A stretch of 64,000 bases of DNA, from assembly GCA_949317995.1 (NCBI GenBank), contig OX439045.1, forward strand, positions 43,853,693-43,917,692. The letters run 5' to 3'. The notes beneath the pieces were generated by a model. The model was not told where the DNA came from, ran no database searches, and was given only the letters and a program-made list of their open reading frames with translations. Source of the stretch: Acholoe squamosa (lineage: Eukaryota > Annelida > Polychaeta > Phyllodocida > Polynoidae). Below are positions 1-64,000 of the stretch, in pieces (the first letter of the stretch is position 1; every line of letters begins with the position of its first letter). The position numbers and the translations under genes were made by a program.

Positions 1-2230
1 GGTTTCTCCATGACATTTTCCGCTGACCATTACACTACATTATTCATCCTGAATAAAGCTTGCACTTCCCGGACTGCCCGCCATTTTTACCAGGTGGAGT
101 ACCAGATATTCCATCCCTGCCGCATGGTGATGCTGTAGAACATGCTACTTATTACCTACAGGTATATACCTAAATCACACTCTCTTACATTTAATGTCAG
201 ACATAGATGCCATTTTGGTGTTTCTCAATAATTTGTGCACCGACTCGCCCATGGCATTTTCCTCAAAATTGTATGATTATCTCTGACTTAAACATAGCCA
301 AGCATCATGCAAGCTGGCTGCCCATCTAGCATGTAGATGTGGGGTCTGTCTTGATAAACATGACAAGATGTATTGTTATCTGATAAAATGGATAAATGCT
401 AGGTTTGGCCCGTTAGTTACGTCAGGCATATGGCTAGATGGCCTCTGAAACTCTATATGCCATAGGTAGCACTTGATAATGAAAAGAATGCATATATAGT
501 TGCTAATATTTAGCGGATAGAGATACACAGAAGCAGAGGTCCCTTTGAGAACTAAAATATCAAATATAAATGGCACTTACATGCTAGGATACTACAGAAG
601 ATTTCACATTGAATTGTCTAAATTATTTAAAATGACACTCTGTATAACGGAGAAAAGAATCAACAGATGAGGCCTCTGATATTCCCAAAAATTCTACTCC
701 TCGAACACTTATCATATACATTGTATTCAATATTCCTTTGGTATACTAGGATCTGTACTATATACTGCCCTACTGCATACAGACATTAGTAAGCAGGTGG
801 GCCTTGGGTCAGTATAGCCGCACAACACTGCACACATTGTTTCCATTAGCATACTTACGTAGTGAACTGCATAGAGATGGTTTATCTACAGCTTTTACCT
901 GACCCAGCCCACCAGCCTTACAGTTATAATTATATCATATTTTATATATACATGACAGAGGGAGCCGGGGGCGCTGGTGTAGAGGCGATAGAGCCACACC
1001 ACTGCCTTCCCACTTATGATAAGAGACAGAATAGTAGCATAAGCTCGCGCAGGTGCTTCTTGTTGGATGTCAAATGCTCAAATTCCTTGGGAAGTATTCA
1101 TCAGATTCAAAACAATATGCAGGATTTTACAGCTACACAATGTTTACAAAATAATTTAATGACATAATTTGATAAAGACAGTTATATACACTGATATCGA
1201 TGCTATAATTAAAATGCAACTAATGTACGGGACTATAGGAACTAATGATTGTGACTGACTTCAGATACATGGCCTCTTCCCTCAGACCTTGCGATTGTAG
1301 AAACAAGGAACTAGGTCCAACCACCCACCTCCCCCTGTCCATACATTTAATCCCATTCTAAAGGATGACAGCCCGAGAATATTCTCGGTAAGCTACCTGT
1401 CACTTTACTGTCATTATTTCAATACAGGACTACTTCTGTTATATGTCAGAAAGTCAATAATGTAAAATAAATGAGATAGAGATGGGAGACACAAAAAAAA
1501 GTGCCGAGAGAGCCCATCACCAGTGAGAACATACCACTTTTGTTCTTAGAAAGATGTCTTTTTTTTTCTTTCATACTTTTCTTTGTACCTCGACTTCTTG
1601 AAGACGTAAGGAAATCCATTCCAAAGGATAGATATTCCAAGACACAACCGAGAAAAGAGGGTCAGAGAGTACGTTGACAAGACGCATTTTAAGAAAGGTG
1701 TTTAGCTATTCTTTCTAATTTACTTTTGAAATGACAGGATGAAGATATTTGCTTTGAACATTTCAGATGCTGTTCTGCAATAGTAAATCTAATCTGGACT
1801 TATCTGATTAGCTGACGTCTAGGGAACATGATTGCCTTGTCTTCTGTCTCGAGCAGGCCAATTATTGAAGATATAGATGAATAAAGCACACAGATGGAGG
1901 CAGATGGGAAAAGGCTAATACAAAATTCAGAGTCTGTCATACTCTACCAGGCTTCTATATGGAAATTATGCGTATAGACATGGACACGTATAACATATTG
2001 AAGAACTTGTTCTTCCTAGAACCCACATATTCACATAGAATCTAGCCAGCTGCCAACAGGCATGTCTTCCATCATAATTGCATTCTTCCTTCATAATTGC
2101 TTATTCATATAGAGGGACATTGGGTTAATTTGGAGGACATTCCAGAAGGGGGGTGCGACGGTAACACCAAAAGATAAATACAATATATACCATATTAAAA
2201 TATTATTCCAGATCTTGCAATTGGACCTTT
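1..2230. other. gene-free AT-rich DNA
   Basis: No ORF here has a recognisable domain, and no exon-like segment with plausible splice borders was seen. The stretch is AT-rich with short homopolymers. I see no TIR pair or tRNA-like sequence in it. It is most simply intergenic sequence. Confidence 0.5.
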
Positions 2231-2454
2231 GATACACCCTAAAAAAATGTCATTGAAAAATGAAGGATCTCTCGTCCCAAAGTTGCCTGAGATTCTTCAT
2301 TATTTTCTCACATCGTTTTCACAGAGATTACTTGTACCACCACACTGCCACCTGGAGATTATACACTGGCTCCCTGTCGTGTAATCATGGTGGTTCATTG
2401 TTCGGTTTTTACAAGGATCCGTTGTATATCCAACAGTTATTTCTTACAGTGTAC
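2231..2454. mobile_element. possible short TIR element (MITE-like)
   Basis: The left end reads TACACCCTAAAAAAAT and the right end, read on the opposite strand, reads TACACTGTAAGAAAT. Both are imperfect versions of the TACAC..TAA end seen on the larger elements of this window, and the right end matches the left end of the element at 47585 over 15 bases. It has no coding capacity. The pairing of these two ends is inferred and may be accidental. Confidence 0.35.
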
Positions 2455-3564
2455 CTGATGAGTATCATGATGAATCAGTCTACAAGCCCTGAGGTAATGA
2501 TATTTTCTTAGAAATTCAAAGTGCTAATACATATCTACACAGAGAAAATATTGATACTCACCGTGAGTCTGATGTTAGCCTCAGGCAAATGTCGCCAAAA
2601 TGAGTATATTTTGATACTCAGGGTGAGCCTAGGGTTTAGGCATACTCCAGCAATACCTGGCACTCTACTCTAGATTGTTTATGGCCTAGCTGTACCCTCT
2701 CTACTGCCCTACTCTCACAGTGCAGGAGTCTCTTTAGAGACAGGCTCAGGGTCAACTGGAGTAACATAATAGAAGAGAATAGGACATTGCCTAAGTATCT
2801 CTATGAAGAGGGTCAGGCAATGCTGGATCCTACCTGAACAGGCTCCAACATTGCAGGAGTCTGTCTTGCCAATGGTGTAATGCACTGCCAGAGTATCCCA
2901 ATACATAGGATCACACTTTGCTGGATTCTACCTTCAGAGTGAGTCCAGCAACACAACCCAGTGGGCACAACTCCACTTAATGAGTTACTAATCAGCACTG
3001 CATTTAGGGCTTACAGACAGTCTAAATAATAATGGTTATGTAGCCCTGCATTTGTAGCCCTTATTGAACTACTAAGCTGTAGGGTGTATTAAGCCCAACA
3101 CATAAGTGGTTTATCAAACACTATAAAGAAATATAGAAATTAAGGTCACCATATGACAAAAGCCCATTATTTCATACACACAAGGATTTCAGATGGTCGA
3201 ACATTCAACTTCCTAAGGCAGTCTAATTAATCGATGAATAGTTTGTGCATTCCTGGTTTCAGTGTCCTTATTGCTCCTTGGTGGGATTTGAAACGGGTAC
3301 CTCCTTATTGTGACTCCTTTGTGCTCCTATCTGTGCTAGCGGGGCAGGTGTTGAAAGTGGCACTATCAATATGATATTTCAACCATAGACCTACTACAGT
3401 GAGATGTCATTGGTCATATGAGGCCCAGTAGACTAAAAGGAAACACAGACTGGAGTGACCATAGTAAGGAAAAATGCCCATAGTAAGGTAACTGTCCACA
3501 ATGTCCTCAGTATGTATGGCACAGTCCTACTTATATGCCTATTGCAAGCTGGCTCACCAGTTGT

Positions 3565-3633
3565 AGAGGTGGCACAGCGGTAGGATTCCCGCTTTGCATG
3601 TGAGGGGTCTCAGGTTCAAGTCTTGATGGTGCT
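3565..3633 (+). repeat. tRNA-Ala(UGC)-like sequence, SINE head or tRNA pseudogene
   Basis: A pol III A-box-like TGGCACAGCGGTAGG and a B-box-like AGGTTCAAGTC lie at tRNA spacing. Between them GCTTTGCATG matches the anticodon arm of tRNA-Ala(UGC). The arms pair imperfectly and no clean 7-bp acceptor stem can be drawn, so a working tRNA is unlikely. A T-rich tract follows. It lies inside the TIR element 2536-4652. Confidence 0.5.
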
Positions 3634-3845
3634 GAGAACCATTTTTCATTTTTTTCAGTTTAATAGGAAACATCTCATCTATTGCAGTGTATTTTTCTAA
3701 GACCTAACTTTGTAACTAATTGAAATAGATGCTTGCTTGAAAACTGACAAAATCTTCAACATCTGCCAAATTAGAAAAAAGCAAGAAAATAAATTGTTTG
3801 CATAACAAAAAATTTCGGGTTGAAAACTTGCAGCTTTTGAAGAGC

Positions 3846-3916
3846 ATCCCTGGGCTGGAATCGAACTCAGGACCTTCTCATATGAAGGTAAACATGTTAC
3901 CAGTACACCATCTTGA
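3846..3916 (-). repeat. tRNA-like sequence, probable SINE head or tRNA pseudogene
   Basis: On the minus strand an A-box-like segment (GATGGTGTACTGGTAACA) is followed at tRNA spacing by a strong B box (GAGTTCGATTCC). The middle stem CCTTC...GAAGG encloses only six bases instead of seven, so the sequence is decayed. It is the second of three tRNA-like sequences within 800 bp. Confidence 0.5.
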
Positions 3917-4296
3917 CTGTGCTGAAAGATCTCCACTTGAAATCTCATATGATCTGCTCCCTCTGTGTGTTGAAAGCTGGTATTCTACTTTTTTCCAAGC
4001 CCCAAAACATTAGAAATATGCCTAGGACCATATGTCACTTTTACATTTACTGAAAGATATGATCATACTCTAAATGTTTTAGTGATTAATTCCTATTATA
4101 TTCCTATATAGATAAGATTATATTCTTAGATATCATGGTTACAAGGACTAGAGGATAATAGAAATGATATTGAGTATGTGCAAGAACGGGTGAGGGGGGG
4201 GAACAATTTCTCACAAACCCATTATGAATGCATATTCATGCACATATTCATGCTCACATTGTAAGATTGACTTACAGAGATTGACTTTACAAAAAT

Positions 4297-4366
4297 TCTC
4301 AATGGGGCTTGAACTTACAACCTTCAGATGAAGAGTTCAGTGCCATATCAACTGAGCTAATGAGGC
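4297..4366 (-). repeat. tRNA-Lys(CUU)-like sequence, probable SINE head or tRNA pseudogene
   Basis: The minus strand reads TTAGCTCAGTTGATA (A box) and GTAAGTTCAAGCCCC (B box). The segment GAACTCTTCATCTGAAGG resembles the tRNA-Lys(CUU) anticodon arm. The overall order and spacing are those of a tRNA, but several stems are mismatched, so a functional gene is unlikely. It lies just inside the right word array of the surrounding TIR element. Confidence 0.55.
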
Positions 4367-4652
4367 ACATGGTGTGGTTGGTGCTAGGATATGATATAAT
4401 CTCAGACATCAGTGTAGGTGCTAGACCCCTGCTTTGCTGGAGTATTCATTTATATTCAGACTGAGTATGGCACCATGCCTGAGCCTTGTGCCATACTCAT
4501 GCTGATCCTTTTTCCCAATGTGTGGCATTGAAGCAGGCTCAGCATGAGTATGGCATGTCAGGGGAGAGCCTCTAGCAGAGGCTCTCATGATACTCAGGCA
4601 GCGCCAGAGACTAGGTGAAACTCAGGCTGATGCTCTTTTTTCCGTCAGTGTA

Positions 4653-7414: not shown

Positions 7415-8732
7415 TACACTGTAAGAAGTAGGCAGGGTTAGTTTACAGCGAAATCCCCTGGCAACTTTGGTTCCAGTACCCTTTGCTGTAAATCTACAGG
7501 AGGTGAGTCAATGTAATTTTACAGCACAATCCATAATAATCAACATTGATCTTCAGAAACATGCTGTAAATTAACAGCAATATATGTTGTACAATTACAA
7601 AAAAAGGTTTTGTAATTAAACATCAATATTTTTAAAATGAACAACAAAATTTGCTGTAAATGAACAGTAAAATGTAGTGTACATTTACAGAAACCTTTGC
7701 AGGCAACTGAGGTTCCGGCAACTATGGCTGTAAATTTACAGAAAATGGAAGTGTAGATTTACAGCAAGAGGTGTATTAAGGTTCAATGATGTTTACATGA
7801 AGCATCAATGTCATATCCCATGTTATACCATGCAAGAATAAAGTTACAATAGTCTACTGATAGATGTTATCTCTCCGAGCTCCAGTGTCAGCCTGTCTGC
7901 TCTTATTGACACTATGCACACTATTGAGAGTAAGTGAAGTAGAGAACCATATCACCCAAACCATTTTGTGGTCATTCAGTTGTAGCACTGATTTAACCTA
8001 AAGGCAGGTAGGCCTATGTTACCTTCAATCTCAGAGTCCAGACACTTCTTTTTAAGATTTAGACACAGCTATGGTGTCATTTGTGTATATTACTGTTGTT
8101 CCTAGTTTCATCTCAGATAACCTTGTATATTATCATTTGTGCACAATGCAAGATTGAACCTATTCAGGTTACTATTATATTACATTTCATTAAGCTCTGT
8201 CCGAGACAATATTGGATTTAGGTATGAATATACATACTGAACATAATTATGGTATACTGGTACCCACTAGTGGGAGAAAATGCAGGTAAGGCTATCTAGG
8301 TGAACCCTTGATAGGGCCATCATATGTACTCCATTTATGTGGCAGGGTGATTGCTTGGCCTAGGGCATATTGATTGATTGATTGATTTGTGTTTTACAGC
8401 ACTTTAGCGGCACTAAGTGGCTATCCCGTGCTTCACAGGTTGATAATTTAACAGAGGAATGTGTCAGTGCCCGTGCATATGTGCACCACACACATCCTGA
8501 GGGGATAGGAAAGAGGAGATATAGACCCTTTTAAGTGGGCTAGGGAAGCCCGTGGCCTAGGGCATAGGTATAAGTAAGAGTAATTATACAGCTCAACTTA
8601 TGGTACATAGGTATATACAGCTGCAAAGCTGTGGTTGTACAGTAAGGCTCACTGTATTTGTGAATACTGCAGTTTCTCCTGTGAATTTACAGAGCATGTT
8701 CCTGTTTGAAAACACAAACTCCTTACAGTGTA
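7415..8732. mobile_element. TIR element with CTGTAAAT/ACAG word array
   Basis: The ends are TACACTGTAAGAAGT on the left and, inverted, TACACTGTAAGGAGT on the right: one mismatch in 15 bases. The terminal TA at each side could be a TA target duplication or part of the TIR. Between about 7440 and 7765, and again around 8580-8700, the word CTGTAAAT / TTTACAG recurs in both orientations. There is no transposase-like ORF, so the element is non-autonomous. It was itself invaded by a retroposon at 8370-8552. Confidence 0.65.
8370..8552 (-). mobile_element. SINE or 5'-truncated LINE insertion with perfect target-site duplication
   Basis: A 183-bp insert is flanked by a perfect 14-bp direct repeat, TGGCCTAGGGCATA, at 8356-8369 and 8553-8566. 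On the minus strand it ends in a (TCAA)n tail, seen as TTGATTGATTGATTGA at its low-coordinate end. A tail of short tandem repeats plus a 14-bp duplication is the hallmark of target-primed reverse transcription. The body (on minus, ..GTGCCGCTAAAGTGCTGTAAAACAC.. before the tail) has no clear A/B boxes, so it could be a SINE lacking a visible head or a LINE 3' fragment. Confidence 0.8.
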
Positions 8733-9668: not shown

Positions 9669-10397
9669 GTGACCATATATGAGCATGTGACCTACTTTCT
9701 CGAGCTCTGATTGGGTGAGAGATAATTTATGAAATTTATGCTATGATGTCATCACATGATGATCACGTGATCACAACAAAAAAGGAAAAAAAAAGCAAAC
9801 CGACCACGTGGTCAGTCACAGCAGAAAACATAAACAAAAACAAACCTAGTCTTGCCCAAGTCTGTAGTATAAGCAAATGGTAGCGTTTATTTTAACAAAC
9901 AGGGGTGGTGGGTAGGTAGGTAGGCAGGGGTAGGTAGGGTAGGGTAGTTAGGTTTATATAGGGTGTGCTCATGTTATACATGTGCGTGTGTGGCCTTTTC
10001 TACTTTAGCCTAGTTTACGTTTGGTTATTTATTTTTTGTTTATTAAGTTTACATATCGCCGTTTACAAAATGGATTAGAAAAAAGTGTTAACTTTTAGCA
10101 CCTACATCATAACATTCTCCCACCACAACGTAGGGTAAAGTAGGTAGGTAGGTAAAATAGGGTAGAGTAAGGTAGGGTAGGCTATGGGGTGGGCGGCACC
10201 CCTTACGTATTTTGGGGGAAAAGGCCACACACACGCACACCCTATGTATAAACCTAACAACCCTACCCTACCCTACCTACCCCTACCTACCTACCCCTAC
10301 CTATCATGTGATGACGTCATAGCATAAATTTGCATAAATTATCTCTCAACCAATCAGAGCTCGAGACAGTAGGTCACATGCCCATAATTATATGGTC
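9669..10397. repeat. large inverted repeat with TAGG tandem repeats
   Basis: The left arm (9669-9760) and right arm (10303-10397) are near-complementary over about 90 bp; both contain the TCGAGCTCTGATTGG segment and the ATTTATGCTATGA segment. A second complementary pair follows inward: 9905-10000 (GGTAGGTAGG.., GTGTGTGGCCTTTTC) and 10200-10302. The left half also carries an unmatched insert with the palindromes TGATCACGTGATCA (9760-9773) and GACCACGTGGTC. There is no coding capacity. This is most likely a foldback-type or TIR element. Confidence 0.6.
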
Positions 10398-10453
10398 ACT
10401 TCCGGTTTCAAAACTAGGTCACTTCCAGTTCGTAAGTAGGTCAAATTGATTTC

Positions 10454-11379
10454 AGTAGCTGACTCATTCTCACCAATGTGATGCAACTATGTTCGGGGAT
10501 GTTTCTGACCGAGGTTTCTGACCGAGGTTTCTGACCGGCAGTTACAGAGAGTTAATTTAGCCTCCAGTTTGAAATTGGTCACAGAAAGGTACTGTTTTTT
10601 CACTTCCCCCATGTTCTTTATGGTCCAGGGCACCCTTCCCTGTCCTTTTTGTTCCTTTCCAGACTCAGGAACAAACCGAGAAGAAAAATGTTCTTGACTT
10701 CCTCCTCTCCCAAAGGGGTTACTAACTGGGGAGGTTTCTGACCAGCAGTTATAAAAACATCTATTGATCTGTAGTTTGAATTCCATCACAGAAAGGCATA
10801 GTTTTTTCAGTCGACATAGGATTGATCTTATCCTGGCTCTATTTTAGATTGACAAATTTCTTGCCACCCCTTATATTTATGGCACAATTGGCCATCTCTT
10901 TTCTGGTCAGAGAGCTTCACATAATGAAGGTTTCTGACTGAGGTTTCTGACCAGGGTGGTTTCTGACCAAGGTTTCTGACTGGGGAGGTTCCTGACCAAG
11001 GTTTCTGACTGGGAAAAAAAGATATGGCCAATTGTGCCACAAATATGGGGTTGGCAAGAAATTTGTCAATCTAAAAGTCAGGATAGGATCAGAAACCCCC
11101 ATTAGGTCAGAGAACTTCTAGGAGAAGTGACTTCCCCTTAAAACAAAAAAGAGAGGGCAAATAAGTAAGGAAAAATAATAGGAAAAGAAAGATGTCCATC
11201 TAAGGAAATGGGAGGGGAGGCTGAAGATCAAGATAAGTTGCACACTAGCACTGTATTCTTCATCAAGACATCGATCAGAAACCTACCCGGTCAGAAACCT
11301 CCCCAGTCAGAAACCTTCATTATGTGAAGCTTTCTGAACGTAGTTGCATCACATTGGTGCGAATGAGTCAGCTGTTACT
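10454..11379. mobile_element. TIR element with GGTTTCTGACC word arrays and nested inverted repeats
   Basis: Left-end sequence AGTAGCTGACTCATTC, followed by CACCAATGTGATGCAACTA, recurs inverted at 11338-11379 (AGTAACAGCTGACTCATTC and CACCAATGTGATGCAACTA). The word GGTTTCTGACC/T is repeated tandemly at 10501-10540, 10730-10745, 10928-11012 and, inverted, at 11274-11320. A further inverted pair lies inside, about 10818-10905 with 11018-11095 (GGCACAATTGGCC.. / ATTGACAAATTTCTTGCC). The ORFs across it are by-products of the repeated word. Confidence 0.6.
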
Positions 11380-15181: not shown

Positions 15182-15455
15182 TACACTGAAAACATGGAAG
15201 ATCCGAAACTAGTCAGTGGTGACCACTTTAGGTCCTCAAGTTGACAATACCTAAAACTACAACTTTAGATAGTCAAAAGACGACCTGAGTCGTCAGTATG
15301 ACAATACTGACAGTACAGAGTCATCATACTGACGACTTAGGTCGACCTAAAGTCGTCATTTTGACTACCTAAAGTTGTAGTTTTAGGTATTGTCAACTTG
15401 AGGACCTGAAGTGGTCACCGCTGACTCGTTTCGGATCTTCCATGTTTTCAGTGTA
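15182..15455. mobile_element. hairpin MITE (almost complete inverted repeat)
   Basis: The 274-bp unit begins TACACTGAAAACATGGAAGA and ends with its complement. The arms stay complementary almost to the centre (TCAAGTTGACAATACCTAAA is matched on the other side), leaving a small loop near 15,300-15,320. TA flanks both ends. It has no coding capacity. The whole unit would fold into a long hairpin, and the CACTG end links it to the other TACAC(T/A)G elements here. Confidence 0.78.
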
Positions 15456-21640: not shown

Positions 21641-22254
21641 GCCAATGTATATGAAGGATTCGAATAAGTTGTCCGACATATCTGATGTTTGCACACCTCT
21701 TAAGCATAGAATCCAATGGTGGCAGGTGGAGTTATTAACAGGGAAACATCCTTAGATATCCTAGATGAACATGCAATGTCTAAATTCTCCATATTGTTCG
21801 AAATAACTAAGAATCCAATGATTTTCCATAGCGATATGTCTCAGAACCCGCCATTGTGGCTTGCTGACCCAGTTCTTCAGCCGAAAGTATGTCAGGTTAC
21901 ATCTGGGCACCTAGCCACTTCGTCAACAAGACGGAATGGCTGTGTGCATTGGATCACTATGTAAAATCATTGGATTCTCATTTATTTAGAAGAAAATGGA
22001 GACAAAATATAGGCGAACACCAATTAGAGATCAAATATTTGTTGGTGCTAGAAGTACAGGACTTGACATGCTTGGATTCTACCCGAAAAATGTGTGTAAA
22101 GGTGGAGGTATGTCTTGGCAGAGTGACAACATGGCCATGATGGCTTGGCAAACTGTGCGGATCGCATACACTTTCAAAATGTCTTCTCCTGGATTAATTC
22201 TGGGGTTATCAGGTAAGAAATTGATACAAAATGGAGGAGTAGTTGGATAAATGA

Positions 22255-22375
22255 ATTAATGCATTGATAACCTAGGACGAGGTGAGGTTTGCTGGAAATA
22301 TTCGCCCGACCGCGCAGCGGGAGCTTGAATATTTCCAGCAAACCTCACCTTGTCCTAGGTTATCAATACATTAAT
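22255..22375. repeat. 121-bp palindrome
   Basis: The arms of about 49 bp read ATTAATGCATTGATAACC.. through GGTTTGCTGGAAATATTC and return inverted with two mismatches. They enclose a CpG-rich loop (CCCGACCGCGCAGCGGGAGC). No coding content. It could be a foldback element or a hairpin end of a DNA transposon. Confidence 0.78.
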
Positions 22376-22591
22376 AGCTTATTATATCATGCTTATCGAC
22401 ATTTTGCACTGATTTGGGTTCATATTTGTACCTAAAAGGAGTGCATTTAACCACGGCTAGAAAGAAAAATGTTGACACTGGAACGAAATGTAATATGACA
22501 GTGAGTTGACGGCTAAATATATCCACCATTTCTAACAGAATTTTAAATGTAAATAGTTAGTATTAATGGTGGAAACCATGATATAAAGGCA

Positions 22592-22710
22592 ATATGTGAC
22601 AGTTATTGATGCACTTGTTGATTTTAGCCCCTTGATAAACCCACTCACATGACGGCTCATGGATTGTATCTGGGGCTAAAATCAATGCATGCATCAATAA
22701 CTGTCATATA
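22592..22710. repeat. second palindrome, ~119 bp
   Basis: The arms read TGACAGTTATTGATGCA..TTGATTTTAGCCCC and return inverted at 22672-22710. The loop is about 40 bp. It lies 217 bp downstream of the first palindrome and uses different arm sequences. Confidence 0.72.
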
Positions 22711-23500
22711 TCCCCTAAATACTTTAAATGCATTGATAAATCAGCTGTGGCGATCCCTGCCAAAACATTGGTAACCTTGGTTTCTAACATCTTACATAGA
22801 CGGTCCATACAATATTCATAGCAAGTACCACGCAACTTGCGGCCATGTCGGCCACATTCAGTTATCCATTTGCCTCGGGTATTAGAATTATGTGCCAAGA
22901 ATTGAATCATGATAGTGCCAATAAGAGATGAAAACGGCTTCCTCATAATTAAAACTGAAGTAGAATGAAAAAAATCCAATAGTTCAAGTTTCAGAACTGG
23001 TCATGCATTGGGAAAAAGCACTGGTCTTTAGAGTAGAGGCAATCAAGATGCAATGGAAGTACTTGTAATTAGGCACGAAGAGAATCTTAATGACTGAGAA
23101 AGAAGCTGCTTCTATTTCAATAAAGAATTCATCTCCTATTTTCCGCAGTCAACGTACACATTCAATACCACGGGGTTTTAAACCGGAATACTGCGTCCTG
23201 TCATTTCAAATTGGATTTTCACATTACCCAATCCTGAATTGAACGAATTCTGTGACCTTGGAAAAGAACCTCACGCTTCAAAAACAGAGAACAAAAAGCT
23301 TTGATCCGATTTAACCTTTCTGCGCTAAATCTGTAATAAAAGCAGTAAAGATTAATACCCTCATTGAATGGTGTTGAACCCTGGAGCAGGGGGCGAAGGC
23401 TGCCCTTGATCACCCCTCCTCTCCATACACCTCCACCCTCGACTTTGACATAAAGACCCACCCACCCTTCCTCCCTCTCCCAATCCACTCACCTGCAAGC
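22711..23500. other. gene-free DNA
   Basis: Only short ORFs without domain signal are present. The pyrimidine-rich stretch at 23,395-23,530 makes antisense ORFs that look compositional. Confidence 0.4.
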
Positions 23501-30981: not shown

Positions 30982-33900
30982 GAATTATTTAACAATATGG
31001 AACTCACTGTATACAGCAAATGACATTTTCTCCAACAGCCCCAGACGCAGACGACATTCGCGGAGGTCTCTTTTTTGAACCGACACACCTTCCCTTTAGT
31101 TTACATAGGTCATCTAAGGAAGACGTCAACAAGTAACACCCCCAATCTCAGAGCAGCTTGGTCGCCAATATCCTAATGGATTTACATCTTCATGAGATTA
31201 TTCTATTTCTATTTTACCCTCAGGCTGGGATATGTAAAGACCTGGTTGTAATTATAATTAGTTTACTTGGTTAGTGGACATTTACTAAGTTTCCTAAAAA
31301 AGGAAGGTATCCTTGAAACATTTGCCTAGATTTGAATATTCAATGGGGATGGGGATGGCGGGTGGAGGTGCTATTGACCAGGTAGAGGGGAAATACGGGA
31401 CAAGGATGTTGCCTGAGGGTGTTTTGGGAATTGAATACTATATGAGTCCATGGCTGTCCTTTTCAGACCCGTGCTCGGTACCCATAGTCAAGTTCGACAG
31501 TGTACCATTTGCAGCCAGTCAGTCGAAAGGAAAACTGTGCCAGGCACATTGTGCAATAGTAAACATTGCATCCATTGAGTAAATCCCATATTTCTCATCT
31601 GAATAACTCTCCTTTGACACAAGTTAAAACTACTGCGATTTCAGTTAAATTGTAGGGACAGTAAGGGCTTTTGAATATATGAATAAGCCACTGCAGAGAT
31701 ATCTAGGGCCCTGCTAAATCAGCATTTTCTGTTTATCATCAGTGAGCGATATAAGGAGAAAGAACTGTGCTGAGCGATATTAGGGAGGATAGTGAGTTGG
31801 TGACACTGGGGTTATGGTGCGGCGGGCGACTGGGGACGGTAGAAGGGGGCTGCTAGCCCCAACCATGACCTCACAGCACGTCAGATGGCAGCCCTGATGG
31901 CTTCTATATGAATGCAGACATCTCCAGATGAAACGAAGAAGAATTTAATTCAGCCACGGCAGAGGAAAAAAAGAAAACCCCTCCCCAACCACGGTGCCAG
32001 AGGTTAGTCCGCGCGCACGACCATCACCACCAGATGGCCGTGCGGCGGCCATGATGAATCATCCGCCTCAGGATGGGGTAATCACAGCAGCCTGTGGTGG
32101 GGCTTGTAGAGGTTAGGAGTGGGGGCGATCGTGTGGTGAGAGCACAGCGGCGCTAGCAATGCGGTTTTTTGGGGTAGAGGGTGTGGAGGTGATGCAAGTT
32201 AATTAGACATTGTAGTCAGCAACAATGTTGGTGAGGTGTAAGGCGACAATGGTGGGAGTGATGAGGTGGACCCGCGTCTGGCCCCGGCACTGATAGAATT
32301 CAAGGGTGGCGTGCGTCATCTGGACATGGACGCCGGATGGAGACTGCCCCCACCGCCAGATATGCCCTTAGACGGCGGGACCGACCTTTCCGGGGTGGTC
32401 GGGGTCTATCTGGACGCTGCTTGGTAATGACATGGTACACAGACTGCGCTGATGATACCTCCATGTTGTCCCTAGTATCACTCCCAGCCACCTCCCTCTA
32501 AACCACACCCACCAAACCACACCTGACAATGGCAAGGAATAGGGCACCTCAATAATACCGGTATATACGCATAGATAGAGTTTGATTTGGATTTATGTAT
32601 CCCAACCATTGTGCAATTGAGAATTCACTTATTCAGAGCTGTTGTGTTATGGATGGTATTTTGTGAGGATTTGTTGGGATTTGTGCACCACCAGCACCCT
32701 TGCTGAAGTCCCCTGGGGCCCGGGGTTCAGATCCGCACTGGATTGATAGGCAAGGTTACAGCTCAGGTTGTCAGGAGGAGGGGTAGCTGCAGATGCTAGA
32801 TGACGAGAAATGGGGTTGTGAGGTTGGGGTCCACATAGGTCAGGTGAGTGGGTTGCTTGTGGATGTGTCGTTGAGGTTTGGGAATTAGGGTTTTGGGGTT
32901 TTGAGGGCGGGTTGTTCTGGAAAGGGATGGTTAATTTGTACATTTCTACATTTGCACTCATACAATAGATTGAATGGTGTTAAATGGTGATAAATATAAA
33001 CATGCATACTACAGACAACATTTTCCCCAGAAGCAACAGACGCAGACAGGTATGGGTTGTATGGAGTTCCTCTCATGAAATTAGAAGAGATTTATAAATG
33101 TCTGAAATGGACATCTATGTCCTGTCTACCGATACTAATTGTCTATATAAATTCACTCTTGGTATAACAGAAAGTTGGTTTCGGGGTATGTATATAACTA
33201 TGTGCAATACCATTATTATTTGTACTTGTATACACTCTGCATAGCAGCACCCAAAATATGTTTCCCCCTTTCTCCCCCATTGAATGTCTAATTATAGAAC
33301 ACATTTAGCCACTTCGAGGTAAAACGCACGACCCTTCATTGGAAGTCAAATCTTTGACAGAGGCCATACTGCACTGGAAGCACTCAAGCCCTAAAGAAAA
33401 CATGAGATCTCTTAGCACAGCCAAACTACTGATTACATGAATACATCTCTTCTAAGTCCCTTTACCCGACATTAAGACAACCTGCTCTGCAGTGGGCTAG
33501 GGCAGAAGGGGGTCCATTAGGCAAGGCTAAACAAGGCACTTCTCCAGGAGCCAGCGGAAAGCAAAGCTAACCGCCAGCCCCCACACCCACAGAGTAGCTC
33601 CTCTAAAAGGGCAAAGACCCTGGAGCTGCTTAGAACAGCTCACCGCCACCATGAGCTGTGGACGAGAGCGGGTCGAGAGAGCACCTGAGAGTCACAAACC
33701 CATTTCCAAAGTGGAAGGATGGTACAGAAGCTCCAGAAGCAGTCTTTCTTTTTCATCTTACTGCTCCTTCCTGTACCCCAAGCCCCACTACCGAAAGAGC
33801 TACAATCTAAAACAAGTAGGAGCCCGTCTATATAATACACCTCCAAATCCATACGCCCTACTCCTGCTCTTCATATTTTGTACCCGACCTTAATACAGGT

Positions 33901-36900
33901 CCCTATGGTTCCAGACTAGGAGACATCAGTCCCAGGTCTGCTATGCTTCCACGTCTAGCCATGGTCAGAGGTGATCCAGGGTTTTTATTCTCTGCAGGCC
34001 ACAGGGTGCCAATATGTTCACCCCACGGGTGACGGCAGGCCAACCCCTCCAAGCGCGGCCACCCTAGCGTGTGCGTGACTGTGGGTTTTCTGCCTGCTGC
34101 CTATCAAGCAAGTCCCTGGAAGAGCTATTTCTAGGTGCTTATAGTGTAGTGTTTGCTTAAGCCGATGTTTTGCCTTCATACTCAGTCCTCTTCCTAGCTG
34201 GTATCTATTTTCTCACTCTCCTATGTCAGGATTATTAATATGACACAACAGGAGGGCTCGTTCCTGAATTATATAAAAAAGGAGAATTATGTCTCAATTA
34301 GCTAGCACATGCATCACTGATTACTTTGTGTCAGATGGAGATACCAAGAAAACTGAAAGTAATATATGGTTAGCTATAGGGCTCACTGGTAAGAAGCTGG
34401 GTAATAAATCACCCTCTGTATTTTTATCATCTGCTATGTTTATAGTCCCTGTAGAGGGGATCCTATACCACACACTTCTCAATGTAAACATCCAGGTACT
34501 TGGTGGGTTCAGTTACAGCAACCCGACCTCCTGGGCTGCCCTTCTGAGGCCCAGCAAGTGAACCCGCACTTAGAGAGATTAGGTAGTACTCATGCTAAAC
34601 ACTACTATGGATATGGAAGGGGGTTCTGGGGAGGATCTAAGACTGTCAACAGTACACAAGGGCGTACAACTCTAGCTCTCCTATAGCAGCCCTAAGTGGA
34701 GCTAGTAGTAGGATAAGACACGGCCATCTTGGATATGGAACAGGGAGAAAAGGGAGGGAGATTTGTAGATGGTATCTCCCGGGTGGTATCTACATGAGCG
34801 CATGGCCCTGGGGTGTCTGGGCATGAAAAAAGTCAGTATGAGTTCCAGCCCCTGCACTCTATACCAATAGAAGACGTCACCTGTGTTCTAGAAATCGCGA
34901 ATTATGGGTCATCTTTCAGGGGCGTTCAATCTCGTTGGATTCAAAAATAAGAGGTCATCTTCTGATGACTTATGTCAGTAATTTTTGAAATAAGAGGTAT
35001 TTTTCCCATAAGGTTTCCAAAAAAAAGTGGAGGGTTTTCAAAAGACTATGTCTATCAGCTATAAAAAATAAAACATGATAAAACCTCCGTGTTTTCCAAA
35101 ATGAGGGATGGTTTAAGACCCATAAAAAGTCAGTGTTTATCAGGAATAACGGGTAAATTTTTGCCTTAAAATCTCAGTATAAGGGGGTGATTGTGAAGAT
35201 GGAGAACGCAGGTGACGTACTCCTTTGAAGCAGAGTGTAGGGGCCGGGGTATTAGTAAACCTTCTTTTAAATATCCTTTCTTTTTTCTGTACTATTGCGT
35301 GGTATCGTGTTTAAATTGCGTACCAGACGTGTATTTGACAGTGTTTTGGCCACGTGGTTCGTGTTTTGTGAGGCTGTCATGATTAGGGTAACCAGTGGTG
35401 CTGGGCTGCACACTTCGGACCACCCATCCACTATCATATACAATGTTAAACACCCAGTTCTTGACCATTTCATACAACCCCTTTTGTTAATTGCTTGTCA
35501 AAATGACGACAGGTAGCTTGAAAAAAGTTTCAGATGGAACATGCATGCAGGAAAAATGTCACATTTACCATTTAAAGGTCAGAACGTGGTAATTATTTTT
35601 GATATGGGTTAACTAAAAAGATTCCTGGAGACGAGGAAAATGCATGGTTTCGTCACGGTCATAGGTAATCAGGGAATCGGGAGACAATCCTATCAAACTG
35701 TTTTCATGTATTTCATACCTTTTTAATAAGAAAAAAATATAGAAAAAAACACCTTACTTTGGACTTTATATCATCAGCCAAACCTTTGGCTCTGACATAA
35801 TATCAAATTTTCGTAGCCTGTCATGTATTTGATATAGACCTACTGCCTATCAGACAGGAATATCTCTATAGCTTTTGCTACAGGGCCCTACTTTGCAAAG
35901 ATGTCTCATCTTTCTCCTACCAATATCCTCGACCTGTATACATTTTTTGCTATTAAGAGTGGCCTATTGATGTAGCTGCCACTCAATACATTCACACTTC
36001 GGACCCACCCTCTGGGAAAGGGAAAAAGCCACCCCAGTGGCATTAGTATACACGAGGGCCGACCTGTCCTATGAAGGGTTATCAACCGATGTCATTAATA
36101 CTGTAATACTGTAAGATAAAAGCAACACACTGCAAGCAGTCAATAGAGCCAGCATTGACATGGAAGCTGGGCTTTGGTGGTAAAGGGGTAAGGGGGGCAC
36201 AGACACAACCACTGCCACTCCCCTCCCAATATTTGACATATTCTATAATTCATATAAGGCCCCTGGACCGAGTTGCCGCACATTGGAGGGGCTGGGGCTT
36301 GAGTTGGTATTCTGGGTCGATGTTGGATTGACATGGCAGCGGACAGGACCAAACAATCTGTGCCGTCCACCACCCAACCCCCTCCCTCCCACCCTGACAC
36401 GTGTCCCCCTGCAAACAGTCGGCCCAGCGCAAATGTTTAATGCTTCTTTATTAGCCGCCGAGCATGGCCCATCGCAAATAAATAACGGCCAGCTGAGTGG
36501 CCGGATGAAAACGGAGGCGGTGGCGGCTTCTTTGTGAAGTCACCACTACTGGAGGTGAATTGGGCATATAATGGTGGGTGTTGTCCTCCAGGCGTGCCAG
36601 GAGGGCTGCAGTTATTGGGCTGTAGGCCTATTTGCTTTAGCCACACAGCACTGCCCGCTGTGTGGACCACAGGAGGAGGAGGGGCGGGTGTACACTAGTC
36701 AAGTAGTATATAGAGTAGGGAGTTTGGCACAGTGAAGAGGGTAGGAGGGGAGGAGGAAAGACCTGCATGACAGAAAACAGACCTGGTCGGCCAGAATGAG
36801 GTGCCAACAGAAGAAGTATGTATATGGGGAAGGGGAAAGCATAGAGTGCAAAATAGAAAGATATAGATTCATATAGGCCGCAAATGACAAGCCACGGTGA

Positions 36901-42900: not shown

Positions 42901-45900
42901 GATATACATCAAGGGCGGTGGTTCCGCGTTAAAGAGATGGCTCATCATGGTTAAATCACCGGGAAAGCCGATCCCTCAAACTACCATTGTTGCCTTGAAT
43001 GGCTTTTGTGCCCGGGCATCCGAAAGCAATAGCTCGTTTTTAGTAGGCAGGTGAAACTATCACCCTGACAAAGATTCCAGAGCATTTTAAACAAACAATT
43101 GAAACGCTTTACCCCTGGGGAATATAAACATAGCCGGGGGATATACTTGTGTATCAGGGGATGTTCAGGCGGGGGGGGGGGGGGGTCACACAGAGGGGGA
43201 TAGGAGAGTAAAGGTATAAGGATAGAAACAGACAGAAAGACAGACACAGGTAATACGCTACCGAGTAACTGAAAGTCACTTCAAATTGAACTTCTCATAC
43301 ATGTGTTTCCATTTGATAAGTTTTGCCAATTATTATCTGAGAAAATTTAACATCCTGTTAATGATTTTTTTTTTTATAAAATCACCATCCATCAGGATAA
43401 ATTCCTTAATTCCTACCAAAGTTCTGGCTGAAGAGAAAACTTAGTGATCAGTGTTAATTCCTGTTAGTTCTATCCTCTAATTCAGCATAGGGGTATGAGT
43501 ATTAGAAACTAGTCAGCTGCTAGTGGGCCATAAGTGTACCTCGAGCTTGTTATATTCGATATACTATGCAGCCTATTGATATGCATGAGACTGATTTAAT
43601 TCCTTGTGTCTTTTTATGCATGGATGCTAATTTTAGCAAACTCCAACAATGTTAGTCAGTGATGACACCTACTGTATATTGATTCTTTTACACACCCCTT
43701 AGTTAAATCAAACTTCTGATACATAGATGTGACCATTTGACATATTTTGCCAATAATCACTGGTCACTGGTTACAATATCAAAAAAGCTTTAGCACCTTG
43801 CTTATGAGTTTCCATAAAATCATCATGAATAAATTTCTTACCTCCTACCAAATTTTCTGACCAAATAGAAAACTGAGTGATTAGTTTTATGGACTCTTAT
43901 ATCTAATTATGAACATCAACCAACAGAACCGAACTTATGTTGTTCATGTACACAGGTATAGAATATATGACAGGTGCCTAGAACCATATGGCAGTGCCAA
44001 GCACTGAACATTAGATAGAATGACAGCTATATACATAAATACCCTTGTTAACAGGTGGCCTGCCCAGAGATTCATGACAGCGCACTTCCAGTCATATTAT
44101 TTTACCTGGATGCACCTGTACTTGCATCACAATGGTATTCATGAACACTAATGGGAAAAAAGTGGCGACTTCAATTCAGGACCAACTTGCTGTGGCCATT
44201 GGTTATTTATAATTTTTGTCACAAACATGTACCTTTTCATCTGTTGATTGTTCGGAAAATTTTTGCCATGATTTTCAGGCAATCAAAACTTTCAAACTCA
44301 ATTCATTGGCAATAGGTTGACCTCCATTCACGTTGTTTCTGAATTGCACAAATGTATTCTTTTTGTCCGGCTGATCTAAAACCCCATATAGAATTGCACT
44401 CCCCAAAATTATAAACCTGTTTTTACACGCTGTCTATCTGAGTGATTGACATTTTCCTTATCGTAAATACAGGTAATCTAGCCATACTATGTTCCTGCTT
44501 ATTACTCTTCATCGAAGACTCAGCTATTCTAATATCCATTAATCCTTACCTTTCAGAGATTGGGACCTATTGCCAAAACGAGGAGTTTACAGCCACCTGC
44601 CAACCAGATGAAGTGGTCCTAATGCGAATAGCAAACTATGGCAGAATGAAGCTTAGTAAATGTGTGCGGAAGGACTATGGCTATATAGGATGTGGACATG
44701 AGGTGACAGGTATTGCTCATGCTTTCTGCTCAGGACGGAGGCAGTGTACTATTCCTGTACCTAACGAGCAGCTCGACCTTAACCCACCCTGTCCTGAAGA
44801 CTTCAAGAGTTACCTAGAGGCTGGATATGATTGTGTCAAAGGTGAGTGTTTGATTCTTTAATTTTGTAAATTCACTAAGAATTAAGATACATCGTTAAGT
44901 TGGCTTTAACATCACCTAGTGCATTACATTTTACATGATGAAGGTTGACCTATACAATAGCTATCCTACGTACCATGTCTACCCAATCGCCATCACCAAA
45001 TCCGAAACATATCAATGGTATGGGCGTCTCCAGTCACATTAATATGGATTATGTTACTGCCTACTGATTGCTTAATTTCTTTTTCTTATTAGGGCATCAT
45101 GATTGAACATACACCATCTCAAAAACTCATCTTTTGTTAATCCTGAGTAGTACGCTCCGACCGTGATTTTTTTACCATGAATTTGACCTGCATCTATTTG
45201 GCCTTCCTCGAGTGTACACAGAGAAAATAAAGGGAGTCAAAAGGAGAGTCCAGGCTTGCCTTCAGATTGACTCCCCTTTCTGACAAAAGGGAGTCAACTG
45301 ACTCCCTTAAGGGAGTCCAGGTTTTGCCTTCAAATTGACTCCCCTATACTCCAAAGGAGAGTCCAGGGCACCTTTGACTCCCTTCCAAAAGGGAGTCTGG
45401 CCAATCATTGACTCCCTTTCGGGAAGATACAATTATTCTTAATGACAGTTATATCTAGACCCATAGTCTCTGGATATCAAGTGTAATGCCAGTCATAATT
45501 CATCTTGTACACTTGTGATTTGCATGATGAAAGACAGCATGGATACTGAGCTTTCCTCAAGGTACATTAGTTGACATGACAAAGCAGTTGACTCAGTATG
45601 GCTTTAGTTTTATGATATTGGTACAGAATGGGTGTCTAAGGCTTTTGAAAGTGATTAAATTGGCCATACATCAAGTAGTTTGAATTATTCTACTGTATCT
45701 CATTTTTAGGGTATGTACTGATCCTGGGATAATTGATTTTTTTTTCAATATAAATTCCATTGTCTTATTTCAAATCGAAACAAAGATTAGTGCATCCAGA
45801 TAAATCCTCTATGGAGATAGTGCCTCCACCTAGTGGAAATCATTTGCTTGACTCCCCCTGGCTTACCCTGACTCCCTTTGGGAGTCCAGGTCACCCATGA

Positions 45901-48900
45901 CTCCCTTATTAACCACTGACTCTTTCAAACTCTGTCAAAAGGGAGTCAGGATCCTGTGACTCTGAACAAAAAGGGAGTCAGATAACCTGAGAAGGGAGTC
46001 AGGGAAGCATTGACTCCCTTTTTATACCCCAGACTCCCTTTGTGACTCTGTTTATTCTCTCTGTGTACGGGCAGTATAGTGGTACATGCCCATGCCTTTT
46101 CCAATTTAATATGGCGAGGTGAAACCAGCCCGAGGGTAATGGGTTATTACTTTTAGAGAGATTGTGTTATTACCCCTAAGTGCACGCCCAATATGGGCCT
46201 TTACGTATCAATAACAGTTTCAAATACCAAGTCACGGTATATCTAAATTGAGTTTTCATCTGTCTCAATGAAAGGCCCGCCTCACAGACCCCTGCAGCTA
46301 GAAGAGTGCTGGCAAAATCACCTTGAGTCATGTCAATCTCAATCTCGTTAAAACCATTACCACCCTAGCCCCTGGGTCCAAAATAGCCAGGTCGGCACTT
46401 AGACGATTGATTCCGTGTATAAGATTCAAAACATTTGGCAGTACTTTAACTGGTGCTGTGCCCTTGAGGGTAGGTGCGCCGACCGGAGCTTGCATGAGGG
46501 GTTGAGCCATGAAGACCCCCTTCCCTTTTATACCTCGTTCTGGTGACGTGACATGTGAGTTTCCCCTGCTATACCCCCTGCCTCCTCCATCTCAATTCCT
46601 CTATACGCACCCTACATAATGATAGGCCTGTTGCTTTACTCCGTAGCACTATGCCTGAATGAAAGAACCCTGATTAAAAGGAAGATGCTGATGAAGTGAT
46701 TCTTGAGCAAAGAAAGTTTTATAGGAACTTCACGCCAGACACAAAGAGGACAGAAGCAATTTACACTTTGTTCTGTACAGCAAATATCTATATAGAATCG
46801 CACTACAGAGTTAATTGATGGTATTTCCACCAAATACTGATCTCCCACAGGACCTTCCCATACAGAATGTTGCGTGGGTAATAAAGTATTAAGTGTCACT
46901 CATAGAATTACCCATCCAGGGTTGATGTTGTGTGAGATAACATCAAGGTCGTATATTGAATAGGAAGAATACTGTCCAATTTATTATTCAAAAGGCATCC
47001 GCTTTGTGCATTGTAGTTATTGGCCTTTGTTGAGATCCTAGGCCGGGTCCATTAAGCAATTAAAATTTGTCTGAAATCTCAGGCTGAATTATATATGATT
47101 CGTTCCTACTGACTCCTTGTTTAAAGTCATTAACAGATTGGAAAATTGGCAGGCAGCTATAAAACTATAAGCGGGTCTCAAAACACGGGTATTATTCCCC
47201 ATGGGGAGGGACCTTTTAGAATAAAGGTTCATGCACACAAAAATAATCACTGCTCTTTTTAAGTACATGTACATTAAAAAAAATGCACGCTTCATTCATG
47301 GGGTCGAGCTGGTTCGGCCCCGGAGCAGTCCCACAGTTGTCACGCGAAGTGCGGGACTGCAACATGGCGGCAACCAGATGGCCGCTGGAACTGCGCTCTC
47401 CATGCAGACCTTTTGATTGGTGTGCTTTATACCCGGGGCTTTATAAACACGCAGGACATTGCCAAACACATCAAATGTGCTTGGAGAGTGGTATTCCCAA
47501 AAGGTTGTAAATCAACATGGGATGACCCTTTCAACCTCGCTGCTCATGCTACCTAAATGGAGTGCATCTGTTTCTACAACCATGTACACTGTAAGAAATG
47601 TGTGTTGCATTTACACGCTTTGTAACACACTTCTTTGCAGCATATTTTTACTCACTTATTTTTTTAACACACAACACGCTTTTGCCAAAAGTGTGTTAAG
47701 AAGTGTGTTCATGTCAAAAGGGTGTTACAACAAAAGTGTGTTGCAAAAAGTGTGTTCATGCATATAGTGTGTTCATAGAAAGTGTGTTGCTTCATAAAGT
47801 GTTTAGATATGAAAGTGAGTTAATATTTCTACAATGAAGGGGGTGGGTGGGGGGCATTTAGCCTTTATTTCTTCATATTTTCATTTTGGTATACTTGTTA
47901 TTGTCCTGAGATGACGTGAGGAAGGTAACCATGAGGCACACATACTTAATCTGGAAAGGAATAACAATATATTTTTGTAAGACCATAATTATGATATGTT
48001 GATTTAGTGCATAAATTTTCCTAATATCAATTAAACTTCTACATTGAAATATACTAATACATCAATAACATATCTTCTGATTTCTCTGTCTAGAATTTAG
48101 AATGGTGACTGAGTCTAGGCTCCCATATGTAAAAAAGTCATTTTGTAGGTACATTATAATAATAAAGAATTATATTCAAAATGCAGAAGTCCCATTTACC
48201 TATTCCTGGTATTGTGTAAATCACAAATCAGCATGAAAACTTGTCAGAGACTGGAGCAAGCAGTTTTCTGAAAGAGACGAATTGGTGAACACTGTATGCT
48301 ACACTGGATAGTATGTTAGGCAGCATATTGATACAGCTTTTAGAGAATTTCTTTATGTGAGTGTAAATCTATGAGAAACCAACTTACTACACTATTTTAC
48401 AGCTTGTATAGTACTAGTGTAGAGGATGATATATAAGATTATACTTACCAGAAATAAGCAGAGAAGTGAAGACACTCCTCTCTCCAGCAGGTGCAGATTC
48501 AAACTGACTGTGTGTAACTGTTATAACTGACCTTTGGTTAGGTGAGGGGCAATTAATGGGTTGCATAATACCACTGATAAGACTGAAGGATTAATAAAAT
48601 GTGTGTTGATTTAACACACTTTTCAGTACCTAAACACTTTTGATAAAAAAGTGTGTAAGTGTGTTAGAAAAAGTGTGTTGATGCCCTCAAAGTGAGTTAA
48701 CTGCTCAAAGTGGGTTAAATATTCATGTGTGTTACAATCTTGTGTGTTCCCACAACACACATTATTTACAGTGTATGAGTCATGTTTAGGTAGTAGATCT
48801 TGAGAAATGAAGACGTAATATTTCTAACAAAAAGGGTGGGTGTACATCATTGCTATGAGGAGGGAATTACCATTGTATCCCTTGAGAGAAGATCTGAATT

Positions 48901-61680: not shown

Positions 61681-63115
61681 GCTGCTCAGAGAGCTAGAAA
61701 TAGATGTGATGCCGCATTGAGGTCAAATGTATGACTTGCTCTTGGCTATATTGCCCAGAATATGAACTACCGGTTTGAAAACTGTGTAACACAAGCTGCC
61801 GAAACCGTTCAGAGGACCGAGTTTGAACTTTGCCAACATCGGCCACAACTGTAATACATAAGATAAACCTGTAAATAACTGTGCATTCTAAAGTGATGAG
61901 GAATGCTCTCAAAATGATGATGATATATTTATAACATGTGTATGTTTGTTAATACCTTGCTAATGCTGATAAGATAAGCAAGGAATCGTTATATTATTCG
62001 GCAATTGATATACCGTTGTAGCTTTTGTACGCAATGACGAGACGACGATGAATGAATGTTCACAAATAATGTAACTGTTTCTGTTTCTATCGAGGACGGG
62101 GTCCAACATTCGGGACGTCTTATAGGAACGTTCTCCGATACCCTACAATGATTTGAAAATATTATGGAGTATCAAATTATGTTGTATGACAGACGTACCA
62201 TAGACTCTGTTTGGTGACACGTCATGCTGTCAACCAAATCACCTACATGTATTGACCTTTTGAAGTCATACATTTGTACACAAATCGCCTTAGGCGTCTA
62301 CAAGTTTCCTATTTCGCCTAAATACAATCCTCATACATGTACATAATTCGTATGCTCGCCTCGTATACCCTCTGTCTATGCCTGAACCGAACAGACAAAG
62401 GACTCAGAAAATACAAAAAACATAGAAAGTACAATAACTGCAACAAAATGCCATTTCTGCAAGGCCTTAAAACTATATAGAGCGAGTGCTGATTCATACA
62501 ACTCAGCTCAGCCAGAGAACAATGCTTCATTTTAAATTGCACCGCAGTGGTTCGGCAATGCTCTGGTGATGGAGGAAAAATACAAAGAAATCAGCAGGCG
62601 GGGAGTTGTCTAAAGAAACATAAACGTGATTCAGGGTTGATTTGACTGCAAGATAGTGCAGACAATTTGAAATTGAACAGAGTCGATTCCGGTGGTCACA
62701 AATACCCTGCAATGAATCACGTTTGTTTCCCCCTTTCCTACAGTGTGATACGCGGTGGCCGACAAACAAACGTAGGTAATTATTTTGCCTCTGGATATAA
62801 TTACTGCCCTCTAACTTGATAAGACAGTTTTCATTTGTCAAATGAACTAATCTGGTTAAATTGAATCAGGCACCGCTAGAGATAGTAAGACTATGTGTTT
62901 TTTCTCTTATCTGTGCTGCGTCTAGGCGCCTGCGTGCTTTGGTGATACGATATGGAATCTCTGTTTATTATCACGGCACTGTGTATTCGTGCTGCCTTCT
63001 CAAGATGAGAGAAAAAAAATTAGTATAAAAGAATAACTCACACTAACCATCGTACATTTAAACTGGTGTCTATAATTTTTGTACAGAAATGCTAATAAAC
63101 TTATAAACAATGACA
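61681..63115 (+). other. probable 3' UTR
   Basis: The first exact AATAAA after the stop codon that I find is at 63094-63099, which would give a 3' UTR of about 1.4 kb. The sequence between is AT-rich and has no ORF of note. An earlier non-canonical poly(A) signal is possible. Confidence 0.4.
63094..63099 (+). terminator. candidate polyadenylation signal AATAAA
   Basis: A canonical hexamer in the sense direction, 1.4 kb after the receptor stop codon, followed by a TATAAA and then TG-rich sequence. Confidence 0.35.
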
Positions 63116-64000
63116 TCTGATTGACTTGCCTGATTCAGTGCTTAGCATACTAATAATGCCAGCATATTTCTCATCCATATATTTCGTTCACTATTGCCCA
63201 CTTTATAAACTTTTAGGAACCTCAGAGAAACCTCATTAGTGCAATTAGTCCATGGTAAAGTCTTATAGAGGCAATTAACCATACAGAATTAAGGCAATCA
63301 GTGTAGACAGTGAATAGCCTGACAATACATCGAATCAAACTTTCATACATGCATCATTATATTCATTAAATATTCGGATACATATAGGCACGTGTCTGTC
63401 CTTAATGATGACAAATGCAGGGCACCAACGTCGCAGTGGGTATCTACTGTAAAATTACAACCCTATGCCCCCACCCGTTTACGTGTATTCGAGAGTCCTT
63501 TGAAAAGATATATCATTTTTACTAAAAAAAATAACTTGTAAACAAATAACAACGACAACAAAATCAAGGCCTTAGACAACTCAAATTCACAAGACGTTAA
63601 ATCCAGTTCATGTAGCAACTCCGATTCCAATATTTACCATTTCATATACGTCATAAGGCAATAGTAAAGTCCAAAAATAGATGTACATAGAATGCAAGCT
63701 GCATACATAATCAGATGATATAGCCATACTTAAAATTATCTTCCGCTATTAAGGTAGCTCTAGATGCTCGGCATCTAAACGGCCACCTACTATGCCATAG
63801 AGTTCCCCTCCTTATGAATATGCATCAGCTTTACTACGCTAGGAAATATGTGCCATAATGGCAAAGATGAATTATTCATCTGATGTAATTAGGTAGATAG
63901 CAAGAATAACAACTACAACAACTACAGAAACTACAACAACAACCAAAATTGCCCAAACAAGATAGCTCTAACCAGAAATCCAGCAGTATATATAGTATAA
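63116..64000. other. gene-free AT-rich DNA
   Basis: No ORF or exon was recognised. It contains a second copy of the POU-dimer motif (63814-63825) and an ACAACT-type microsatellite at about 63,907-63,945. Confidence 0.45.
63814..63825. promoter_or_regulatory. POU-dimer (MORE-type) motif match
   Basis: ATGAATATGCAT, identical to the site at 23626-23637 upstream of the receptor's first exon. This is a motif match only. Confidence 0.3.

Follow-up and report, generated by a model that had tools for sequence, protein, structure and literature searches.

Candidate EnSpm/CACTA-like elements with grouped CAC...GTG tips and private subterminal words in a 64-kb stretch of Acholoe squamosa DNA

We analyzed a stretch of 64,000 nucleotides from Acholoe squamosa (assembly GCA_949317995.1, contig OX439045.1, positions 43,853,693 to 43,917,692 of the forward strand; hereafter, the window). 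It contains a small set of elements with paired TACAC...GTGTA ends and TA flanks, several of which carry subterminal arrays of a short word that is private to the element; these arrays fold strongly as single-stranded DNA. The elements are likely to be non-autonomous EnSpm/CACTA-like cut-and-paste DNA transposons, probably in an animal genome. We file them in this way because their tips read CAC...GTG, TA flanks them on either side and word arrays lie near the ends. Superfamily membership, mobility and mobilisation in trans are what this likeness would imply, and the words are putative binding sites for the transposition machinery. The elements, named below by their first position and given without strand assignment, are as follows.

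45215–46067: element of 853 bp; TA + CACAGAGAAAATA ... TATTCTCTCTGTG + TA
45232–45416: left word array of this element; 9 exact GGGAGTC in mixed orientation, offsets 17–195
45850–46038: right word array of this element; 9 exact GGGAGTC in mixed orientation, offsets 635–817
47585–48775: element of 1191 bp; TA + CACTGTAAGAAATGTGTGTTG ... CAACACACATTATTTACAGTG + TA; 10 exact AGTGTGTT
7415–8732: element of 1318 bp; TA + CACTGTAAGAAGT ... ACTCCTTACAGTG + TA; 8 exact CTGTAAAT
15182–15455: fold-back palindrome of 274 bp; TA + CACTGAAAACATGG at both ends
2536–4652: probable element; left TA + CACAGAGAAAATA exact, right end tentative; 8 exact ATACTCA
2233–2453: possible small relative; right TACACTGTAAGAAAT exact, left TACACCCTAAAAAAAT with 3 mismatches; no word array

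Paired tips and TA flanks

All 81 TACAC starts and 87 GTGTA ends of the window were scanned as possible tip pairs. The best agreement was found for 15182–15455 (16/16), followed by 45215–46067 (15/16) and by 47585–48775 and 7415–8732 (14/16 each). These four pairs of at least 14/16 within 2.5 kb compare with 0.02 on average in 500 dinucleotide-shuffled sequences; no shuffled sequence contained four such pairs, and nine contained at least one. CAC stands directly after TA at both ends of these four elements and at the left end of 2536. The two ends of 15182 agree at 20/20 positions, with a self-match of 83.6% for the element.

We then compared the flanks of six candidates for direct repeats of 1–10 bp, placing the cut either at TA|CAC or outside TACAC. 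With the cut at TA|CAC the direct repeat was TA and nothing longer in all six candidates, while the outer cut left a repeat (2 bp) in 47585 only.

The tips form two groups, CACAGAGAAAA (2536, 45215) and CACTGTAAGAA (7415, 47585 and one end of 2233), besides the palindrome 15182. In the first 11 bases after TA, the left ends of 2536 and 45215 are identical, and so are the left ends of 7415 and 47585 and the right end of 2233. The other ends depart from their own group by one mismatch (right ends of 45215 and 7415) or two (right end of 47585), and between groups the same bases differ at 2–5 positions. The pattern TACACAGAGARAATA has three exact sites, at 2536 (plus), 45215 (plus) and 46053 (minus); TACACTGTAARAAAT occurs exactly at 2439 (minus) and 47585 (plus) and with one mismatch at 7415 and 48761. 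No exact match to either pattern appeared in 20 shuffles. According to the Repbase rule for non-autonomous families, members have target duplications of equal length and first 11 bases that are alike with at most one mismatch (PMC4455052). Under this 11-base rule both ends of 45215 fall together with the left end of 2536 (0 and 1 mismatch). The left end of 47585 and the right end of 2233 likewise group with both ends of 7415 (0–1 mismatch).

The initial annotation had described five elements with common TACAC(A/T)G and TA ends, and perhaps a sixth at 2231. Four of the five are indeed paired and the right end of 2536 stays tentative; the common ends hold within each of the two groups and not across them. 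The sixth, placed here at 2233–2453, has one good end, while its other end is poor and it lacks an array. It should be mentioned that a lone end, TACACTCTAAAAAAAT, with two mismatches to the CACTGTAAGAA-group pattern, is present at 9383 and has no partner among the pairs listed. Further terminal inverted repeat pairs (e.g., 1187–3691, 62277–63305 and 33231–35239) were set aside: 100 shuffles yielded on average 2.19 pairs at 12/16 and 1.25 pairs at 14/20; the first of those named overlaps the 2536 element without nesting. The exact end patterns had no match in prokaryote contigs and one in viral contigs (L001), neither of these being the right collection for copy number. The viral match is taken as chance, and no word cluster lies nearby within a stretch ending 143 bases past it.

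Private words and the layout of their arrays

Exact words were counted on both strands and compared with the 56.4 kb of the window that none of the eight elements under comparison covers. GGGAGTC occurs 18 times in 45215 and once outside, AGTGTGTT 10 times in 47585 and once outside, CTGTAAAT 8 times in 7415 and 3 times outside, and ATACTCA 8 times in 2536 and 6 times outside. Each word is missing from the seven other elements, except for a single CTGTAAAT at 48764, in the right tip of 47585. The shorter word GTGTGTT is found 16 times in 47585 and 7 times outside it, one of these in 2536–4652. Thus the claim that words differ between elements with shared ends is borne out: 45215 and the left end of 2536, as well as the left ends of 7415 and 47585, agree at 11/11 bases and are accompanied by different words.

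As a control, we took window pairs of the same geometry, with the six candidates excluded, and recorded the most frequent 7-mer of the two terminal 250-bp stretches. This 7-mer had 18 copies in 45215 and 11 in 47585, numbers reached by 0/529 and 0/509 controls, respectively; therefore both elements lie far beyond chance. The result is weaker for 2536 (7 copies, reached by 1/458 controls) and 7415 (6 copies, 5/500), and all six control matches are words of two further elements introduced below, X9669 and X10457.

The arrays vary in strength and arrangement. In 45215 all 18 exact GGGAGTC/GACTCCC lie no more than about 220 bp from an end, nine per arm, and the words alternate (11:10 in the two orientations with at most one mismatch), many of them 10–11 or 18–21 bp apart. 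In 47585 the array is also strong; AGTGTGTT with at most one mismatch is present 23 times, mostly one way (18:5), and many of these copies are 12–19 bp apart. The array of 7415 is lopsided: seven of the eight exact CTGTAAAT are in the left arm, 8 of the 11 copies with at most one mismatch (4:7) begin in the leftmost 342 bp, and forward words stand 74–90 bp apart, paired with reverse ones. Subterminal words are weak in 2536 (4:4, exact), absent from 2233, and not private in 15182, where the most frequent one, ACCTAAA, is found 5 times within the element, 3 times in other elements and 11 times in the remaining sequence. Therefore, of the four two-way subterminal arrays of the initial annotation, those of 45215 and 47585 are firm, that of 7415 is one-sided and that of 2536 is weaker; the word GATACTCA proposed for the last has 3 copies as written, and the shorter ATACTCA is the one with 8.

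The longest gap between words is larger than uniform placement would give (P = 0.0002 for 2536, 0.008 for 7415, 0.04 for 45215 and 0.00005 for 47585). The word-free core, as it had been described, is strict only in 45215 and only if words are counted exactly; allowing one mismatch puts one word into the core of 45215 and two into the core of 47585. Eight partly overlapping array stretches, four from 45215 (two overlapping pairs), two from 47585, two from 7415 and none from 2536, were folded as single-stranded DNA and gave z values of −2.2 to −5.9. The two stretches of the left array of 45215 gave −4.1 and −5.9, and those of its right array −3.4 and −2.95; two core stretches gave −1.85 and 0.35.

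To look at words independently of the candidates, we scanned the whole window for 8-mers with at least 5 copies in 1500 bp and found 22 words, where 20 shuffles gave 0.05 on average. The scan recovered the arrays in 7415–8732, 45215–46067 and 47585–48775 and gave no word in 2536–4652. It added two stretches not listed before, 9910–11281 and 10501–11309, and one marginal word at 21710–23210. The two stretches lie in, or overlap, the following inverted-repeat elements.

9669–10399 (X9669): arms match at 90.7% over 97 columns; AGGTAGGG 5 times inside and 3 times in the rest
10457–11373 (X10457): 38-bp ends AGCTGACTCATTC..., not TACAC; GGTTTCTGA 12 times exactly inside and 0 times in the rest

No clear duplication was detected at the ends of X9669 and X10457. 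Since both have words and other ends, private words are not limited to the TACAC group.

Classification, mechanism and rival explanations

The elements resemble plant CACTA/EnSpm elements (En/Spm, Tam1, soybean Tgm1 and Tgmt*) in several respects: the conserved tips are short, and the subterminal words are direct as well as inverted and form stem-loops (PMC2613891). In CACTA elements, TNPA is the protein that recognises subterminal repeats, with the tnpD product as putative transposase (PMC2613891). The termini of EnSpm are given as 5'-CAC..GTG-3', with duplications of 2–5 bp in the CMCT clade, most of whose lineages have CA..TG tips (PMC12730594). A comparable assignment was made for two miniature inverted-repeat transposable elements (MITEs) filed as CACTA/CMC by their inverted-repeat similarity, CAC/GTG tips and 2-bp duplication (PMC6004678). 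CMC-NA_1 of a wasp ichnovirus is small and protein-less, with CAC..GTG tips as here, and makes a 2-bp duplication (PMC6004678); zebrafish EnSpm-N6_DR is likewise small and protein-less, and several EnSpm-N subfamilies are described within one genome (PMC3485254). These animal EnSpm-N/CMC MITEs are likened by description only, and subterminal arrays are unmentioned in the accounts consulted (PMC3485254, PMC6004678). TRC elements (SmTRC1) are CACTA-related, live in animal hosts and make a 2-bp duplication, but their inverted repeats begin with CCC, whereas the elements here begin with CAC (PMC1636069).

The element 7415 may resemble fish EnSpm elements; the presumed fish end had 0 matches in viral contigs, a collection that says nothing about fish genomes.

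On the EnSpm/CACTA-like reading, an autonomous relative elsewhere would supply the transposase in trans, expected to be a DDE enzyme with the C(2)C and H(3-4)H motifs of CMC transposases. The enzyme would cut at the shared CAC...GTG tips and use TA as the insertion site, so that TA stands on either side of the element. The private words would offer multiple binding sites for a TNPA-like accessory protein or for the DNA-binding domain of the transposase, and the word-bound machinery would gather both element ends into a single complex. Every autonomous lineage would have its own protein and hence its own word. A TNPA/tnpD-like division of labour in these elements is suggested by analogy with the plant system. 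The comparison with CACTA-type elements and their subterminal binding repeats, drawn in the initial annotation, is thus retained, with binding as a putative role of the words.

Several observations weigh against this classification. The tips read CACAG or CACTG, not CACTA, and the flank is TA, whereas Tgmt* has CACTA tips and a 3-bp duplication (ATA) (PMC2613891). TA flanks all six candidates, but at inverted tips it may itself be part of the inverted repeat rather than a short target duplication such as the 2–3 bp of EnSpm. The right end of 47585, with 2/11 mismatches to its own group, violates the Repbase rule. No second copy of any element was detected within the window (self-BLAST, E 1e-4). 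The 2536 element has a weak right end: past TACAC the tips at 2536 and 4652 agree poorly, local alignment of the arms gave nothing at the tips, and this end is backed solely by four ATACTCA 64–192 bp away (measured from 4654). Phasing of words at 10.5 bp was seen in 45215 only (P = 0.004, uncorrected) and was absent from 2536 (P = 0.33), 7415 (P = 0.58) and 47585 (P = 0.96), and the core stretch with z = −1.85 nearly equals the weakest array stretch (−2.2). Finally, when the longest 150 of the window's 246 stop-to-stop open reading frames (ORFs; at least 62 aa) were searched with Pfam, none showed a transposase domain, a result that non-autonomous elements would be expected to give.

The elements could instead belong to a mixture, in which the palindrome and each of the tip groups represent different superfamilies converging on TACAC. 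We regard this as doubtful, although it has the best prospects among the alternatives and is compatible with an EnSpm/CACTA-like origin of one or more groups. The differences of 2–5 of 11 bases between groups exceed the one mismatch of the Repbase rule (PMC4455052), and X9669 and X10457 have words with different ends. Shared ancestry of the arrays was sought past base 22; among the best 10 of 120 arm comparisons, one scored a single point above its 100 shuffles and another equalled its shuffle maximum. The TA|CAC tips of all candidates and the 11/11 agreement of left ends within each tip group speak against such convergence. It is unlikely that the elements are non-autonomous members of a different lineage that targets TA (Tc1/mariner, TA-type Harbinger such as PHISTA, or ESTA); their arrays would then still be binding sites. 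This reading has in its favour the TA on both sides of all six candidates; against it, Tc1/mariner ends usually look different. PHISTA and ESTA make TA duplications, and ESTA is EnSpm-like; both are described from fungi and are set beside the elements here by description, the ESTA families carrying a TET/JBP gene (PMC12730594). Their claim is countered by the CAC...GTG tips and dense subterminal arrays, which match CACTA elements (PMC2613891).

Improbable in our view is a neutral origin of the arrays, by slippage or local duplication that amplified a chance word in dead elements. Tandem Repeats Finder reported tandem rows in the left array of 47585, in X9669 and in X10457, and a two-copy row in 7415; longer repeat units are also present in 7415 (47 nt, 62–79% alike to the reference copy) and in 45215 (29–40 nt, 62–80%). 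However, the program found no tandem row in 45215, where 18 of the 21 words with at most one mismatch are exact, in mixed orientation, nine in each arm. Neutral growth also does not explain arrays near the ends of several elements, a pattern that is weaker in 2536 and 7415.

Other classes were rejected. Transib/ProtoRAG elements make a 5-bp target duplication, and no 5-bp repeat was found at either cut point in the six candidates. The same comparison gave no repeat of 5–8 bp, the lengths known for hAT (8 bp, and 5–7 bp in some; PMC12730594). Kolobok/KolobokP were set aside as having TTAA or 3–5 bp duplications and RR..YY tips (PMC9587614).

Genomic context and implications

An ORF at 44442–44861 encodes a SUEL lectin domain (E = 1.1e-08) and has a donor-like AG|GTGAGT at 44842. 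It is probably an exon of the gene hosting 45215 and 47585; with the donor-like site following the ORF, both elements would lie downstream of this exon and probably inside an intron, the gene being that of an animal. In total, the Pfam matches among the ORFs searched were SUEL_Lectin and two weak ones, DUF5960 and TM_ErbB1.

Inside the 2536 element, three segments (3560–3625, 3850–3920 and 4280–4350) looked tRNA-like by eye, with GGTTCAAGTC-type boxes, and are perhaps pieces of short interspersed elements; ARAGORN called no tRNA in the window. Two short neighbouring fold-back palindromes with arms of about 50 bp, at 22255–22375 and 22592–22711, are possibly MITEs of another family.

The initial annotation knew of no described family with this set of features. 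Conserved tips with diverged words are already known in soybean CACTA elements, whose words vary among subfamilies of a single species while the tips are kept, as here (PMC2613891). As it stands, the set is a clear instance of this known layout, and it is a probable animal example of the pattern described in plants, with TA flanks in place of the 3-bp duplication of Tgmt*. A broader proposal, which we put forward as speculation and would not bet on, is that CACTA-like lineages within one animal genome keep one cutting signal (e.g., CACTGTAAGAA at TA) and carry swappable private word arrays of differing layout, so that an accessory DNA-binding protein, and not the cutting enzyme, decides which family is moved. 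If this were true in full, the combination of fixed tips with turnover of a subterminal address code, described in plants, would extend outside them. Several address codes would then coexist within 64 kb, and the co-evolution of binding proteins with their words would become testable in a single genome.

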